Virus record (IMG/VR): IMGVR_UViG_3300008266_000467
Location: 1-23,765 of that record
DNA: 23,765 bases
Reading direction: 5' to 3' (one strand)
Source: a virus
Shown piece after piece: positions 3,005-23,765 of the stretch. The notes beneath the pieces were generated by a model, which saw only the letters and a program-made list of their open reading frames with translations, was not told where the DNA came from and did not search any database. A program made the translations under genes and the position numbers. The number at the start of each line of letters is the position of its first letter. Position 1 is the stretch's first letter.

Positions 3005-3997
3005 TTATTTATCTATATTAACTAATATTGTTGTATCAGTTGTTGCGCTTGTTGGAAGTGGTTGACCTAATTTAGCTACCATTAATAATTCTTGGTTCTC
3101 ATTATAGAATCCTACTGTTGTAACATATGGACTAAAATATGAACTTGTTACAAAATTATAAACAGTACCTTCTGATGACCCTGATATTAATGATGGGTTT
3201 AAACTAAAATTGAATTCTTCAGGTCTAATAGTGCATTTATATTGGGTTTCAAATATTGTTCTTGAACTTTGGAAACTACATGTTATATTGTTAGTCTCAC
3301 CTATCCATAACATACCATCAACTGTTAATGGGGATATACTACTATTAGTCCATATTATTGTTCCATGACTGTAATTTATTATACCAGCTGTTTTACCAGG
3401 AGATGTATAACTACTTGATATTACAGTCAATATTCCTTCTCCATTATCTTCATATTCTTCAAATCCAAAATAATCGCCTGCTGGGTCAGCTATTTTAAAA
3501 TAAAAAGTATTTGGATTTATGTAATCCCCAAACATATTTTTAGGTATAGAAAGAACTGTAGCTGTACCTATAGGAGAGAAATATCTTTCGTATCCATAAT
3601 TAGATGAATAATTGTATGAATTAGTTTGAAATAAACTAGTTTGCTCATAATTATAGAATCTACTATAAACATCAGTTAATGAACTATCTTCAATTACTTG
3701 GCCTAAATAATTAGTAATATAAGGAGACCCACTAATTGGATTTGATATGTAATTAGTATAATATAATTGCTTAATTGAATTATATAATGGACCCCAAGTT
3801 ATAGAACTACTATTAAATCCGGGGATTGAGGCTGATGTGAAAAATATGGGGGATAAAATATTGTAACCATTAGTAGCGGCTAGAATTAAACATCCAACAT
3901 TATTTAAAGACGCGCTCCCTTCAAAAGAAAAACTTTTGTTAACAACTAACGGAGATACAATAACATCCGTACTCAAAAATTGTTTGAATGCGCTCAT
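3005..3997 (-). CDS. Virion structural protein, paralogue of the next gene upstream
   Basis: This 330-residue protein is rich in Ser, Thr, Tyr and Asn with predicted beta structure and no membrane segment or signal. I recognise no catalytic motif. The last ~75 residues (from EEFNFSLNPSLISGS through TTVGFYNENQELLMVAKLGQPL) match the end of the upstream neighbour (AEFNYTENPSFISGS, TTVGLYNDSNELLAVAKLSKPL), so the two share a homologous C-terminal module. The N-termini differ. It is the last gene of the long structural run, 3 bases after its paralogue. By position and composition it probably belongs to the outer baseplate or tail-fibre region, but receptor binding or another role is not shown. 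Confidence 0.6.
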   Translation of the reverse strand: MSAFKQFLSTDVIVSPLVVNKSFSFEGSASLNNVGCLILAATNGYNILSPIFFTSASIPGFNSSSITWGPLYNSIKQLYYTNYISNPISGSPYITNYLGQVIEDSSLTDVYSRFYNYEQTSLFQTNSYNYSSNYGYERYFSPIGTATVLSIPKNMFGDYINPNTFYFKIADPAGDYFGFEEYEDNGEGILTVISSSYTSPGKTAGIINYSHGTIIWTNSSISPLTVDGMLWIGETNNITCSFQSSRTIFETQYKCTIRPEEFNFSLNPSLISGSSEGTVYNFVTSSYFSPYVTTVGFYNENQELLMVAKLGQPLPTSATTDTTILVNIDK

Positions 3998-4000
3998 TCA

Positions 4001-5068
4001 TTAAAAGTCTAATTTAACACGTACTAATGCTTCTTTTGTAAAGTCTTTCTTAAGTGGTTTAGATAACTTAGCTACTGCTAATAATTCATTTGAATCATTA
4101 TATAAACCTACTGTTGTAATATAAGTAGTTGGGCTGTTGATAAACAAATCATATAATACAGCTCCTGTGCTACCTGATATAAAGCTTGGGTTTTCAGTGT
4201 AGTTAAATTCAGCGTTTCTTGCTCTACAAAATACAAAATCTGAGGTGATTGTTTCTTGTGAGTTTAATGAGAAACTACTTGTAAATGATCCTGTGGTCAT
4301 ACCTATTCTACCTGAGGCAGTTGAGTATAAACGTAATGGGTTATTAACATTAGTATTAGAGGTTCTTAATGTGTTTAAAGCAATACCTCCACTAGCAAAT
4401 GGTAAATCTAAAGCAGCAGCGTTTAATATGATAGTTCCAACATCAGGTAAGAATAAACCATATGATCCTGATACTGTCATACCATTGCTTATACTTCCAA
4501 GTATAGTTGAGGTTGTGGCTGTCCCATTACTTCCTGATACAATTTGGAATACACGACCAGCATCACTATATGTAATTGTAGTTGTGTCTAAACTATTATC
4601 TGTTAAAGTAATAGAATTAGAAGCAGAGTATAATGTTAAATTTAATGAACCAGGGAATAATGATTCTTTATATCTTGCTCTATCAATTGTGATAGCATAG
4701 AAATCTTGTTGAGATGGAGTTATAGTTGAGAATGAAAAATTAGTATTCTCATCTCCATAAATCATATTTCTCCATTGACCATAAATTGTTCTAGTTGGTG
4801 ATAACCCATTAATCCCAGCATCATATAATAAAGATCCAGAACCAAATTTATTACCATAAGTAATATTAAATTGCAGTTCAGTTGTTGATGGATTAGTTGA
4901 TGGGTCTAAATTATATATATTTAAATAATAATTTCCGGATGTGCCAGCTATTTGTACAGATGAAGTGTACATAGTAGTTAATGGTGAGAGGTAATTAGTC
5001 CAACATGGAGCAGTTACTGTATCAGCACTAACTAAAAAATCTTGAGGGTCTAAAGCTTTATATGACAT
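4001..5068 (-). CDS. Virion structural protein with shared C-terminal module
   Basis: A 355-residue, beta-rich protein with repeated short Ser/Thr/Gly stretches (SGSNGTATTSTILGS and similar), typical of phage tail-associated proteins. Its C-terminal ~75 residues, from AEFNYTENPSF to LVRVKLDF, form a module repeated in the downstream gene. From memory, similar ends (EFNY..NP.F, TTVGLYND..ELLAVAKLSKPL) recur in structural proteins of uncultured T4-like phages, so this may be a docking domain common to several virion parts. It starts 17 bases after the preceding gene, with an A/T-rich stretch and no Shine-Dalgarno. Location in the virion is unknown; baseplate periphery or neck are possible. Confidence 0.6.
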   Translation of the reverse strand: MSYKALDPQDFLVSADTVTAPCWTNYLSPLTTMYTSSVQIAGTSGNYYLNIYNLDPSTNPSTTELQFNITYGNKFGSGSLLYDAGINGLSPTRTIYGQWRNMIYGDENTNFSFSTITPSQQDFYAITIDRARYKESLFPGSLNLTLYSASNSITLTDNSLDTTTITYSDAGRVFQIVSGSNGTATTSTILGSISNGMTVSGSYGLFLPDVGTIILNAAALDLPFASGGIALNTLRTSNTNVNNPLRLYSTASGRIGMTTGSFTSSFSLNSQETITSDFVFCRARNAEFNYTENPSFISGSTGAVLYDLFINSPTTYITTVGLYNDSNELLAVAKLSKPLKKDFTKEALVRVKLDF

Positions 5069-5085
5069 TTTTTATAATATTTTTA

Positions 5086-5742
5086 TTAGCTAACTTTTGT
5101 TATAGTGATTGGAATAGTTACTCTTGCTCCACTATCTCTACCTTGAACAATCAATATAGTTTGTAATTGAGTTTGAGAACCAAATAATGTATTAATAGTG
5201 GTTCCAGTCATATTCAATGTAGTACCAATTACTGTCTTAGACACATTAGTTCCAAGAGTAGTTGTAGCATTAAGAGAAGTAGCTTGTGTTGTATTAACAC
5301 CTACACCATTAAATACACTCATTGTTCTAACATCACCAATAGTAAAATTATATCCTGATGTTTCAAATGTTTGTGTTCCACCTAAATAATTTAAGGTTTG
5401 TGGAGTAATAGATAATGAAGCTCCTTGCTTTAATACAATATTTGTATAACCAATATTAATAATAGGCATTCTAGCAGTACCACGTGGTAAAGTAGTAAGC
5501 AAATACTTCATTATTTGAGTTTCATCAGAAAAAGCTTCTAATAAAGGCATTCCTTCAATCGCTTGACCATAATAAACAGAACCTGATGGGTTATTAGGGT
5601 TGTAAAGAGTATAATCTATCTCATCATCAGATAAAGCAAATTGTGTAATTCTGAATGAGCCATCGTTTTTGGCTAATAATTCTCTACCTTTTTTAGTTAA
5701 GATAGCGTCTACTGTTATGATTTGGTTATTTAAATATCCCAT
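5086..5742 (-). CDS. Putative virion structural protein, GYLNNQIITVDAILTKKG type
   Basis: A 218-residue protein that starts with a well-formed N-terminal domain, including ITVDAILTKKGRELLAKNDG and then RITQFALSDDEIDYTLY. The remainder is a Thr/Gly-rich beta region, with hydrophobic-Thr alternation around residues 140-200. The N-terminal sequence resembles, from memory, a conserved structural protein seen in T4-like phages of aquatic bacteria. I cannot assign a T4 gene number. No membrane segment or enzyme motif is visible. It lies 27 bases downstream of the 537-residue structural gene, which is one of the longer gaps in this run. Confidence 0.55.
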   Translation of the reverse strand: MGYLNNQIITVDAILTKKGRELLAKNDGSFRITQFALSDDEIDYTLYNPNNPSGSVYYGQAIEGMPLLEAFSDETQIMKYLLTTLPRGTARMPIINIGYTNIVLKQGASLSITPQTLNYLGGTQTFETSGYNFTIGDVRTMSVFNGVGVNTTQATSLNATTTLGTNVSKTVIGTTLNMTGTTINTLFGSQTQLQTILIVQGRDSGARVTIPITITKVS

Positions 5743-22354: not shown

Positions 22355-22368
22355 AATAAAAAAATTAG

Positions 22369-22442
22369 TGCGCCTGACAGGAATCGAACCTGTGACCTGC
22401 GGTTTATGAGACCGCTGCTCTAACCAATTGAGCTACAGGCGC
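22369..22442 (-). tRNA. tRNA-Met (CAT)
   Basis: A full cloverleaf is visible on the minus strand: acceptor GCGCCTG/CAGGCGC, D-arm GCTC-AATTGGTTA-GAGC, anticodon arm GCGGT-CTCATAA-ACCGC, variable AGGTC, T-arm ACAGG-TTCGATT-CCTGT, discriminator A. CAT could be Met or, with lysidine at C34, Ile. The GTCACAGGTTCGA segment favours elongator Met. The 3' CCA is not encoded. Confidence 0.9.
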
Positions 22443-22446
22443 TTAG

Positions 22447-22544
22447 CACTCAAGGTTGGACTTGCACCAACACGTTCTATTGAACTCGAAACCTTAGCGT
22501 CTTCTATCGAGTTACCATGGTAACTTCACTTTCGCCACTTGAGC
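22447..22544 (-). ncRNA. tRNA-like RNA with non-canonical core (98 nt)
   Basis: The ends are those of a tRNA: acceptor GCTCAAG pairs with CTTGAGT (7 bp, first pair G-U), discriminator G, and a T-arm GTTGG-TGCAAGT-CCAAC in which the usual T55 is G. The core is not canonical. In order there are a 13-base linker (TGGCGAAAGTGAA), the palindrome GTTACCATGGTAAC, a helix AACTCGA/TCGAGTT closing 17 bases, and a variable-like hairpin GTTC-AATA-GAAC. Several segments (CAAGTGGCGAAA, AGACGC, ACGTGTTGG) recall tRNA-Leu with a long insertion in the D-loop and no 5-bp anticodon stem. It lies 4 bases from tRNA-Met and starts 6 bases after a promoter-like -10 box. T4 also has stable RNAs (C and D) of unknown role in its tRNA cluster. 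A decayed tRNA is the main alternative. Confidence 0.6.
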
Positions 22545-22550
22545 AATATT

Positions 22551-22580
22551 AATATAATAAATAAGAATTATAAAGCCAAA
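22551..22580 (-). promoter_or_regulatory. Promoter-like site for the tRNA-like RNA (TTTGGCT-N17-TATATT)
   Basis: TTTGGCT (22580-22574) begins 2 bases after the stop of the RNase H-like gene. It is followed by exactly 17 bases and TATATT (22556-22551), then AATATT and the first base of the tRNA-like RNA (22544). If active, transcription would start at the mature 5' end or within a base of it, so RNase P trimming would not be needed. Confidence 0.65.
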
Positions 22581-22581
22581 C

Positions 22582-23034
22582 TTATTTACAAATAGCATCA
22601 GCTACATATGAAGCAACCATAGCTTCAGGTTTACATCTAGGAGTGTAACCCATTGATTCTATGTATCCTAATGCTGCTCTTAATACTTGATTAGATTTAT
22701 ATTTAGGATCTGGGTTAAGATCTAAATCAATATAATTAGGTTCAATTCCATTCTCACTTAAAATCATTGCTGTTTGTAAAGAGTATTCTACTTCATTCCA
22801 TAATCTAGTGAAACGATCTGGAATTCTATTAACTATATCTTTAGCATATAGAACATGTCCACCTTTTCCTGAATTATGTAATACAATAACAACTGCATAA
22901 GTAGTATAACGCTCATTTTGAGAGTCACAACCAACATAGATAGTAGTATCTGAGTTATTAGCTAAGAAATCTTTTACATATGGGATTAAGTCTACTTCTT
23001 TCCTAGTAGATAGGCTTTTGAATTTTAGTTCCAT
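22582..23034 (-). CDS. RNase H-like protein, YkuK/DUF458 family
   Basis: This 150-residue product fits the YkuK (DUF458) group of RNase H-fold proteins. It begins with a beta-strand and D37 in TIYVGCDSQNERYTTYAVVI, the first-strand pattern of an RNase H fold. E81 and E83 (LWNEVEYSL) are candidate second acidic residues. YIDLDLNPDP (101-110) supplies D103/D105 near KYKSNQ, and D146 in SYVADAIC suits the final one. Such a set could bind two metal ions for nucleic-acid cleavage, but biochemical function of this family is little known. It separates the tRNA-Cys gene (14 bases upstream) from the tRNA-like RNA, so an RNA-processing role is attractive but unproven. Confidence 0.78.
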   Translation of the reverse strand: MELKFKSLSTRKEVDLIPYVKDFLANNSDTTIYVGCDSQNERYTTYAVVIVLHNSGKGGHVLYAKDIVNRIPDRFTRLWNEVEYSLQTAMILSENGIEPNYIDLDLNPDPKYKSNQVLRAALGYIESMGYTPRCKPEAMVASYVADAICK

Positions 23035-23287: not shown

Positions 23288-23298
23288 AAATAAGCGGA
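23283..23298. repeat. 16-bp spacer repeat, copy 1 (copy 2 at 23544-23559)
   Basis: The plus-strand string GAGGCAAATAAGCGGA occurs here and again at 23544-23559. Each time it joins the 5' end of a GCCTC-acceptor tRNA (Arg-TCT; Leu-TAG) to the 3' end of a Ser tRNA. It shows that two tRNA junctions share ancestry. Confidence 0.75.
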
Positions 23299-23378
23299 GA
23301 GCATTGGAGTCGAACCAAATCCCCGAAGGGACACATTGCTTAGCAGGCAAGCCTAATCACCGTCATAGCTTACTCTCC
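23295..23378 (-). tRNA. tRNA-Ser (GCT)
   Basis: Class II tRNA: acceptor GGAGAGT/GCTCTCC, anticodon arm CTTGC-CTGCTAA-GCAAT, long variable arm with CCC-TTCG-GGG, T-arm TTTGG-TTCGACT-CCAAT, and discriminator G as in Ser. CCA is not encoded; GCTTATTTGCCTC follows the acceptor. Confidence 0.9.
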
Positions 23379-23384
23379 TTTTTG

Positions 23385-23459
23385 TGTGTCTAACCAGATT
23401 CGAACTGGTGCTAACGGAACCACAACCCGTCGTGCTAGACCGCTAACACTATAGACACC
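23385..23459 (-). tRNA. tRNA-His (GTG)
   Basis: Acceptor GTGTCTA/TAGACAC, anticodon arm ACGGG-TTGTGGT-TCCGT, T-arm ACCAG-TTCGAAT-CTGGT. A G precedes the first pair (23459), which could be the G-1 needed by HisRS, though base 73 reads A and not the C usual in bacteria. CCA is not encoded. Confidence 0.87.
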
Positions 23460-23649: not shown

Positions 23650-23670
23650 CTCACCTGAGATCTCAGTGAG
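23650..23670. other. Near-perfect 21-base palindrome before the tRNA cluster
   Basis: CTGAGATCTCAG is a perfect 12-bp palindrome, flanked by CTCA and TGAG, which extend the stem to 8-10 pairs with one bulged C. It lies between a 23-codon ORF and tRNA-Ser-TGA. No T-tract follows on the minus strand, so an RNase processing signal or protein-binding site is more likely than a terminator. Confidence 0.5.
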
Positions 23671-23676
23671 TAGATT

Positions 23677-23748
23677 TTAACGGGTTTCTCTAACTATTTC
23701 GAGAACCTTCATCTGCGTGGATACGAACCAAACGCGAAACTTTTTCAT
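23677..23748 (-). CDS. 23-codon ORF, possible remnant or microprotein
   Basis: The ORF starts at ATG 23748 overlapping the stop of the preceding CDS by one base (TAATG) and encodes a basic peptide beginning MKKFRVWFVSTQMKV and ending EIVRETR. The start resembles the first strand of small phage proteins with a beta-alpha pattern, cut short by a stop. It may be the truncated 5' part of a once larger gene, now replaced by the tRNA cluster, or a true microprotein. Confidence 0.35.
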   Translation of the reverse strand: MKKFRVWFVSTQMKVLEIVRETR

Positions 23749-23765
23749 TAGTGTCTTACCACATA
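23748..23765 (-). CDS. 3' tip of a CDS entering from the right
   Basis: Only the last codons, reading YVVRH and then TAA, lie in the window. The overlap of this stop with the ATG of the 23-codon ORF (TAATG), an arrangement seen at other junctions here, is the reason to think it is real. No function can be read. Confidence 0.35.
   Translation of the reverse strand, partial: YVVRH

Follow-up and report, generated by a model that had tools for sequence, protein, structure and literature searches.

The window analyzed here (the whole stretch of 23,765 nucleotides from IMG/VR virus record IMGVR_UViG_3300008266_000467) carries on its minus strand a 98-nt tRNA-like RNA with a covarying fold, no anticodon arm, no partners for the tRNA elbow contact, and a hairpin apex that is obligately self-complementary. 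The element described in the original prediction is present in the sequence and real; it runs from 22544 to 22447, so that element position p corresponds to window position 22545-p. Without an anticodon arm it falls outside the definition of a tRNA, and we class it among the tRNA-like non-coding RNAs, as a new variant. The idea that tRNA ends were kept around a rebuilt core is now strongly supported by a family on 41 contigs with covariation. That prediction missed the fact that the apex is obligately self-complementary, which is the most telling feature. What could such an RNA be for? On the basis of sequence comparison, we give about an even chance to its being a non-decoding, leucine-tRNA-derived phage RNA that forms a homodimer through the apex, perhaps as a decoy or scaffold.

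Parts and neighbors of the element

Both the 7-bp acceptor and the T-arm of the original prediction were found in the minus-strand sequence. The 5′ acceptor strand GCTCAAG (22538 to 22544) pairs with the 3′ strand CTTGAGT (22448 to 22454) over 7 bp, with G.U as the first pair. It is followed by TGGCG (22533 to 22537), the 5′ side of a tRNA-Leu-like D-stem, which does not vary in our alignment A1 of 30 distinct sequences. The hairpin AGTTACCATGGTAACT (22510 to 22525) takes the place of the D-loop TTGG; the palindrome GTTACCATGGTAAC, first described as 14 bp, is present within it, and its true extent is 16 bp. The tip of this hairpin, CATG (22516 to 22519), is the proposed kissing-loop dimer site. 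The hairpin flank and the 3′ side of the D-stem form CGATAGAAGACGCTA (22495 to 22509), which is near-invariant family-wide, a constancy to be read with the fact that the search patterns required part of it. The stub TAAGGTTTCGA (22486 to 22496) stands at the place of the anticodon arm. The predicted small variable-like hairpin is there as GTTC-AATA-GAAC (22474 to 22485), and the T-arm is GTTGG-TGCAAGT-CCAAC (22455 to 22471), in which G55 (22465) replaces T55 as predicted. The discriminator base (22447) is G only in the window lineage; it is A in 36 of 40 loci and C in one. CCA is not encoded at the 3′ end. Our family model R1 matched the element (22447 to 22544) end to end with 106.5 bits, a score high by construction because the window sequence was included in the R1 seed. 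One further predicted helix, of 7 bp closing 17 bases, fared less well: all seven pairs form in the window, but only two to six of them in the other 29 sequences, and being complete in 1/30 it was rejected as a family structure.

Neither ARAGORN nor Rfam RF00005 called the element in the window, the Rfam covariance models of GOLLD and ROOL did not match it, and neither ARAGORN nor Rfam found a tmRNA in the window. Five other members had no Rfam family at E ≤ 10 over the element. A known RNA family was thus rejected for lack of an Rfam match.

The spacing of 4 nt from a normal tRNA-Met(CAT) (22368 to 22442, minus strand; called by ARAGORN and Rfam) was borne out. On the other side, 37 nt before the element, is an open reading frame of PHROG 11311 (unknown function; 22582 to 23034, minus strand). 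Between them lies the promoter-like TTGGCT-17-TATATT (22551 to 22579, minus strand), which does precede the element in the window and places the start near its first base; two sites of this type were observed in the region against 0.9 expected. As a family feature the box did not hold. It is also kept in relatives that have no element (for example L011-L013, L017, and L018), and many members lie 3 to 6 nt behind a tRNA instead of behind such a box, so an own promoter was rejected as a general trait.

Other features of the tRNA array of the window were noted in passing. A tRNA-Ser(GCT)-like gene (23298 to 23379, minus strand) was missed by ARAGORN and Rfam, and a tRNA-His(GTG)-like gene (23385 to 23458, minus strand) was called by Rfam only; both anticodons were read by eye. 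The stretch from 23651 to 23765, inside the array at the window end, has no tRNA call and contains the palindrome-like CTGAGATCTCAG.

A covarying family that should not decode

Using the upstream open reading frame as the query, we retrieved 32 related phage loci. Three of them (L001-L003) have an identical element and two have a diverged one at the same place, with about 77% and 73% identity over the aligned part. A first pattern built from these elements found 40 IMG/VR stretches; a second, in which the T-arm was left free, found 41, and the extra one (L131) also has G55, recovered in this case without a T-loop constraint. G55 is found in every member. Since D-arm and T-loop motifs were used in the search patterns, part of their invariance was built in by the search. 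The 41 IMG/VR contigs come from uncultured water phages, with the element among tRNA genes, on the tRNA strand in all loci and at most 15 nt from a tRNA in 31 of 40.

Two more conserved stretches lie beside some of these elements. Between the element and tRNA-Met, L004 (5836 to 6057), L042, L044, L050, L060, and L064 share a stretch of ∼200 nt starting with ACAATGAGTAAGAGATACTCAG, probably another structured RNA; the L050 copy had no Rfam match. Before the element, L041, L049, L053, L066, L068, and L131 share ..aaaccg.tat..ctactcat.t.taatctcaag.tg.gga.., possibly part of a further RNA.

A blastn search of isolate phages with the family consensus returned only short chance pieces. With R1, six phage records (Tenacibaculum pT24 and Gundel_1, LR756501, LR756508, Flavobacterium immuto, and Microcystis Mel-JY01) gave at most 38.5 bits, within the range of ordinary Leu tRNAs. 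Ordinary Leu tRNAs, including those of the phages themselves, are also matched by R1 at lower scores, up to 41.6 bits, and weaker matches were therefore judged by eye. A strict pattern had no matches in bacterial genomes, and of the 100 stretches returned by a loose one, nearly all looked like chance matches and one was convincing (L175); no second copy of the L175-type RNA was found in 200 genomes of the L175 genus group. The original prediction had suggested a counterpart of the stable RNAs C and D of T4 (species 1 and 2 RNAs). The likeness stands only in kind, as the element, like these stable T4 RNAs, would be an additional RNA of a phage tRNA cluster, and T4 rnaC has a canonical T-arm at its end; however, R1 found nothing in the tRNA region of T4, and no D-arm motif or palindromic hairpin was seen in the T4 RNAs. 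We did not find a description of such a phage RNA in the open literature searched.

The compensatory changes anticipated in relatives were found among the 30 distinct homologues in the acceptor, D-hairpin, variable arm, and T-arm, with double changes in all four. They affect 5/7 acceptor pairs, 6/8 pairs of the extended hairpin, and 4/4 pairs of the variable arm; in the T-arm, 3/5 pairs covary and 2/5 are invariant. The D-stem GCG/CGC is uninformative for covariation because it is invariant. RNAalifold gave 29 pairs for A1, 18 of them with double compensatory changes. When the two apex pairs are added to give the named structure, 98.6% of the cells are paired and 143 cells in 20 pairs show double changes, whereas sliding the partner by one base dropped pairing to 40 to 42%. 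A tree-based null in the style of R-scape had little power with 186 substitutions and is informative only if restricted to the proposed pairs: the all-pairs test left 1/28 proposed pairs significant, although, among 4,753 column pairs, the 15 with the highest scores include 11 from the structure, and after correction for the 28 proposed pairs only, 11 passed E < 0.05, both apex pairs included. As judged from these alignments, the fold is far above chance and under selection.

Can an RNA of this shape still decode? The predicted absence of a 5-bp anticodon stem with a 7-nt loop holds in the window and in all 30 members, in which the stub between D-stem and variable arm measures 11 to 17 nt, is variable in sequence, and never forms such an arm. 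The GG of the D-loop and T55 are the partners of the canonical tRNA elbow contact. In all members, the hairpin plus CGATAG stands where tRNA-Leu has its D-loop TTGG, and position 55 is G instead of T, so both elbow partners are gone. With the anticodon arm cut to a stub and the elbow lost, the element should not decode. Much of a type II tRNA-Leu is kept, namely the 7-bp acceptor, the D-stem TGGCG(G/A)AA...AGACGC, the variable arm, the 5-bp T-arm, a discriminator that is mostly A73, and the location in tRNA arrays. Unlike tRNA-Leu, the element has an extra hairpin in its D-loop, lacks the anticodon arm, the D-loop GG, and T55, and escapes ARAGORN and the Rfam tRNA model.

The self-complementary apex and competing explanations

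The D-hairpin tip is CATG in 19, TGCA in 9, and CGCG in 2 members, and thus self-complementary in 30/30. The loop of the adjacent variable arm served as an internal control; it is GAAA in 19/30 members and self-complementary in 0/30. In a tree from which the hairpin was left out, the apex switched at least five times, a count that may overstate independent switches if hairpins move between phages as units. L044 and L055 differ by a swap of the entire hairpin, from GACTAATGCATTAGTC to GGTTACCGCGGTAATC, with nearly all else unchanged. Related RNAs with another core have the apex ACGT (L106) or CATG (L014). The convincing bacterial match, L175, scored 50 bits with R1; its loop is the purine-flanked G-GTGCAC-A, and the place of the anticodon arm is taken by another palindromic hairpin, CACAACCTAGGTTGTG. 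This RNA (4280 to 4386, minus strand; GTGCAC and CCTAGG loops) is on a Flavobacterium metagenome-assembled contig, beside AAA ATPase-like open reading frames.

Adjacent bases of one loop cannot pair together, and covariation at the apex is therefore evidence for a symmetric kissing loop. The same argument has been used for GOLLD, ROOL, and OLE, and switching between palindromes in OLE and GOLLD was taken as evidence for homo-multimers (PMC12286853). Here, too, a self-complementary loop covaries between palindromes. The predicted gain from self-duplex formation is about -17 kcal/mol, versus about -5 for random apices; these thermodynamic predictions only restate the palindrome in energy terms.

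Precedents for such contacts differ from the element in size or setting. GOLLD and ROOL are likewise phage or prophage non-coding RNAs near tRNA islands and form homo-oligomers with loop-loop contacts, one GOLLD loop covarying between palindromes (PMC12286853). They are far larger, their folds differ, and a tRNA shell has not been described for them; if the dimer is real, the element would be a small counterpart of these phage homo-oligomeric RNAs. In OLE, the symmetric kissing loop L9.3 changes from GGCC to GAUC or AGCU and was taken as an intermolecular contact (PMC12286853); OLE is a different, large RNA without a tRNA shell, and the likeness lies in the switching palindromic tetranucleotide. 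The HIV-1 dimerization initiation site also has a palindromic apical loop, and L175 shares its GUGCAC and purine flanks (PMC7357161). The HIV-1 site is a 6-nt palindrome in a loop of genomic RNA, whereas the window family has a 4-nt apex. The A3243G mutant of mitochondrial tRNA-Leu(UUR) dimerizes via a self-complementary stretch of its D-arm. It arose by a chance disease mutation in a tRNA that is normal in other respects, and the likeness is that of a dimerizing tRNA.

We propose that a phage-encoded RNA derived from a leucine-type tRNA would be transcribed with the tRNA array and then mature like a tRNA, with CCA probably added. Processing of the tRNA type is likely because an element directly behind a tRNA presumably comes from a longer transcript. 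In its fold, a short variable arm and a D-arm capped by the hairpin would accompany the acceptor/T-arm half, and the hairpin tip would pair with the same tip on a second molecule as a kissing loop, possibly followed by an extended duplex. Four apical nucleotides leave little room for a kissing complex; the contact would have to be a partial kiss or else an extended duplex. The working form, presumably also in the cell, would be a symmetric dimer with two acceptor/T-arm ends and no anticodon. A decoy or scaffold role is a guess; the most likely job would be that of a bivalent decoy or scaffold for a factor that grips the acceptor/T-arm half of tRNAs, perhaps a defense that cuts tRNA tails or a tRNA-handling enzyme.

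One potential alternative, which we consider a good deal less probable than the dimer, is a monomeric tRNA mimic whose acceptor/T-arm half engages a tRNA-binding enzyme or tRNA-cleaving defense. The missing anticodon would make it immune to anticodon nucleases, and the palindrome would serve hairpin stability or protein binding. The kept tRNA ends and lost anticodon fit this explanation, and defenses acting on the acceptor, T-arm, or CCA exist; Cas12a3 still cuts tRNAs after stepwise removal of their loops, and one of the enzymes studied is from Bacteroidetes (PMC12851939). By baseplate protein, the nearest isolates infect Flavobacterium (45.5% identity) and Microcystis (44%). The target is putative, however, and a monomer leaves unexplained why the apex changes only among self-complementary tetranucleotides.

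In the bacteria studied, recognition of the LeuRS type does not need the anticodon. The element could thus be leucylated and feed a non-ribosomal reaction as an amino-acid donor, as its Leu-like D-stem, variable arm, and predominant A73 might suggest. We regard this as unlikely, given G73 in the window lineage and the loss, in every member, of the elbow-shaping bases, GG in the D-loop and T55.

Self-complementarity would also be kept by a palindrome that acts at the DNA level, bound or cut by a dimeric protein, with the tRNA-like shell incidental, and many members do have perfect palindromes of 14 to 16 bp. Yet in at least 12/30 members a G.U pair, bulge, or mismatch breaks the DNA symmetry and spares the RNA hairpin, which disfavors this explanation, as does RNA covariation in the other three helices; we hold it to be quite improbable.

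The original prediction had also allowed for a decayed tRNA-Leu or tRNA-Ser. A tRNA-Leu(UAA) pseudogene was suggested by the Leu-like D-arm and the lack of an ARAGORN call for tRNA-Leu(UAA) in L001-L005. It was rejected, and decay in general has a negligible chance, because in four contigs (L035, L056, L067, and L069) the element follows an intact tRNA-Leu(UAA) at a distance of 4 nt (the L066 locus has such a gene in another position) and compensatory evolution in a widely conserved family maintains the helices. Nor do relatives show an intact tRNA at the place of the element; those that lack it run straight to tRNA-Met or other sequence, and L019 alone among them has two Leu tRNAs after the open reading frame. 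An unusual decoding tRNA with its anticodon in the apex or stub, as CAT in the window apex might hint, is just as hard to credit, since RNAs that are nearly the same elsewhere can have TGCA or CGCG at the apex (L044 versus L055) and the stub has neither a conserved triplet nor a 7-nt loop.

Further shell RNAs of the same phages

Searching the same phages with R1 revealed further RNAs with Leu-like shells and rebuilt cores. One shell, with the acceptor AGTCAGG/CCTGACT and the T-arm ACAGG-TTCGAAT-CCTGT, accounts for 181 distinct full-length sequences at 124 loci, and its hypervariable cores fall into 157 clusters, 139 of them singletons. These RNAs have the T-arm TACAGGTTCGAATCCTGT, often a Leu-like D-arm, and A73, and measure about 67 to 191 nt in total. 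The 3′ half was fixed by the pattern for most of them and the 5′ acceptor was required for the full-length count, so part of the constancy seen in the shell comes from the search itself, whereas the variability of the cores does not. Examples are found in L004 (4554 to 4635 and 4690 to 4809) and L047 (3 to 89, 320 to 431, 508 to 609, and 764 to 900). Such RNAs were also seen in L280 (6 copies) and in L039, a twin of the window phage. A search of 395 Bacteroidota genomes for the exact 23-mer of the 3′ half of this shell found no copy. The class looks like a natural tRNA scaffold that carries cargo.

A conserved core, ATGGTTATAGCAC..GGGTAAAAAA..CACTATAATGGCAGCCC, was seen in more than one tRNA-like shell, both with and without the palindromic D-hairpin: in L007-L010 (about 5243 to 5375), L014 (4055 to 4194), L106 (4518 to 4659, minus strand), L262 (1371 to 1512), and L389 (position 1881 of its minus strand). 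Because this core recurs in different shells, shells and cores seem to be modular, which suggests modular exchange. Two other observations concern RNAs of this kind. The isolate Tenacibaculum phage pT24 (L394) has at 3790 to 4235 a row of tRNAs annotated "Undet" whose anticodon arms look unusual and which loosely recall the RNAs with rebuilt cores. In a tRNA-rich region of IMGVR_UViG_3300028591_000104 (L393, about 1494 to 1720) there is a large RNA with a Leu-like D-arm, a hairpin in the D-loop, an enlarged core of >100 nt, and the T-loop TGCAAAT, with G55 again.

We tentatively raise the possibility that large uncultured phages may keep Leu-like shells of acceptor, D-arm, and T-arm with exchangeable cores, the element in the window being one stable version that has a homodimerization hairpin as its cargo. 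Phage tRNA arrays are usually read as an aid to translation; here the tRNA shell would be reused otherwise, for tRNA-sized, self-assembling, non-decoding RNAs made via the tRNA maturation pathway. At ∼98 nt, dimerization, processing, and partners would be easier to test than in the giant GOLLD and ROOL RNAs, and the family may help to explain the "undetermined" tRNAs in the annotation of such arrays.
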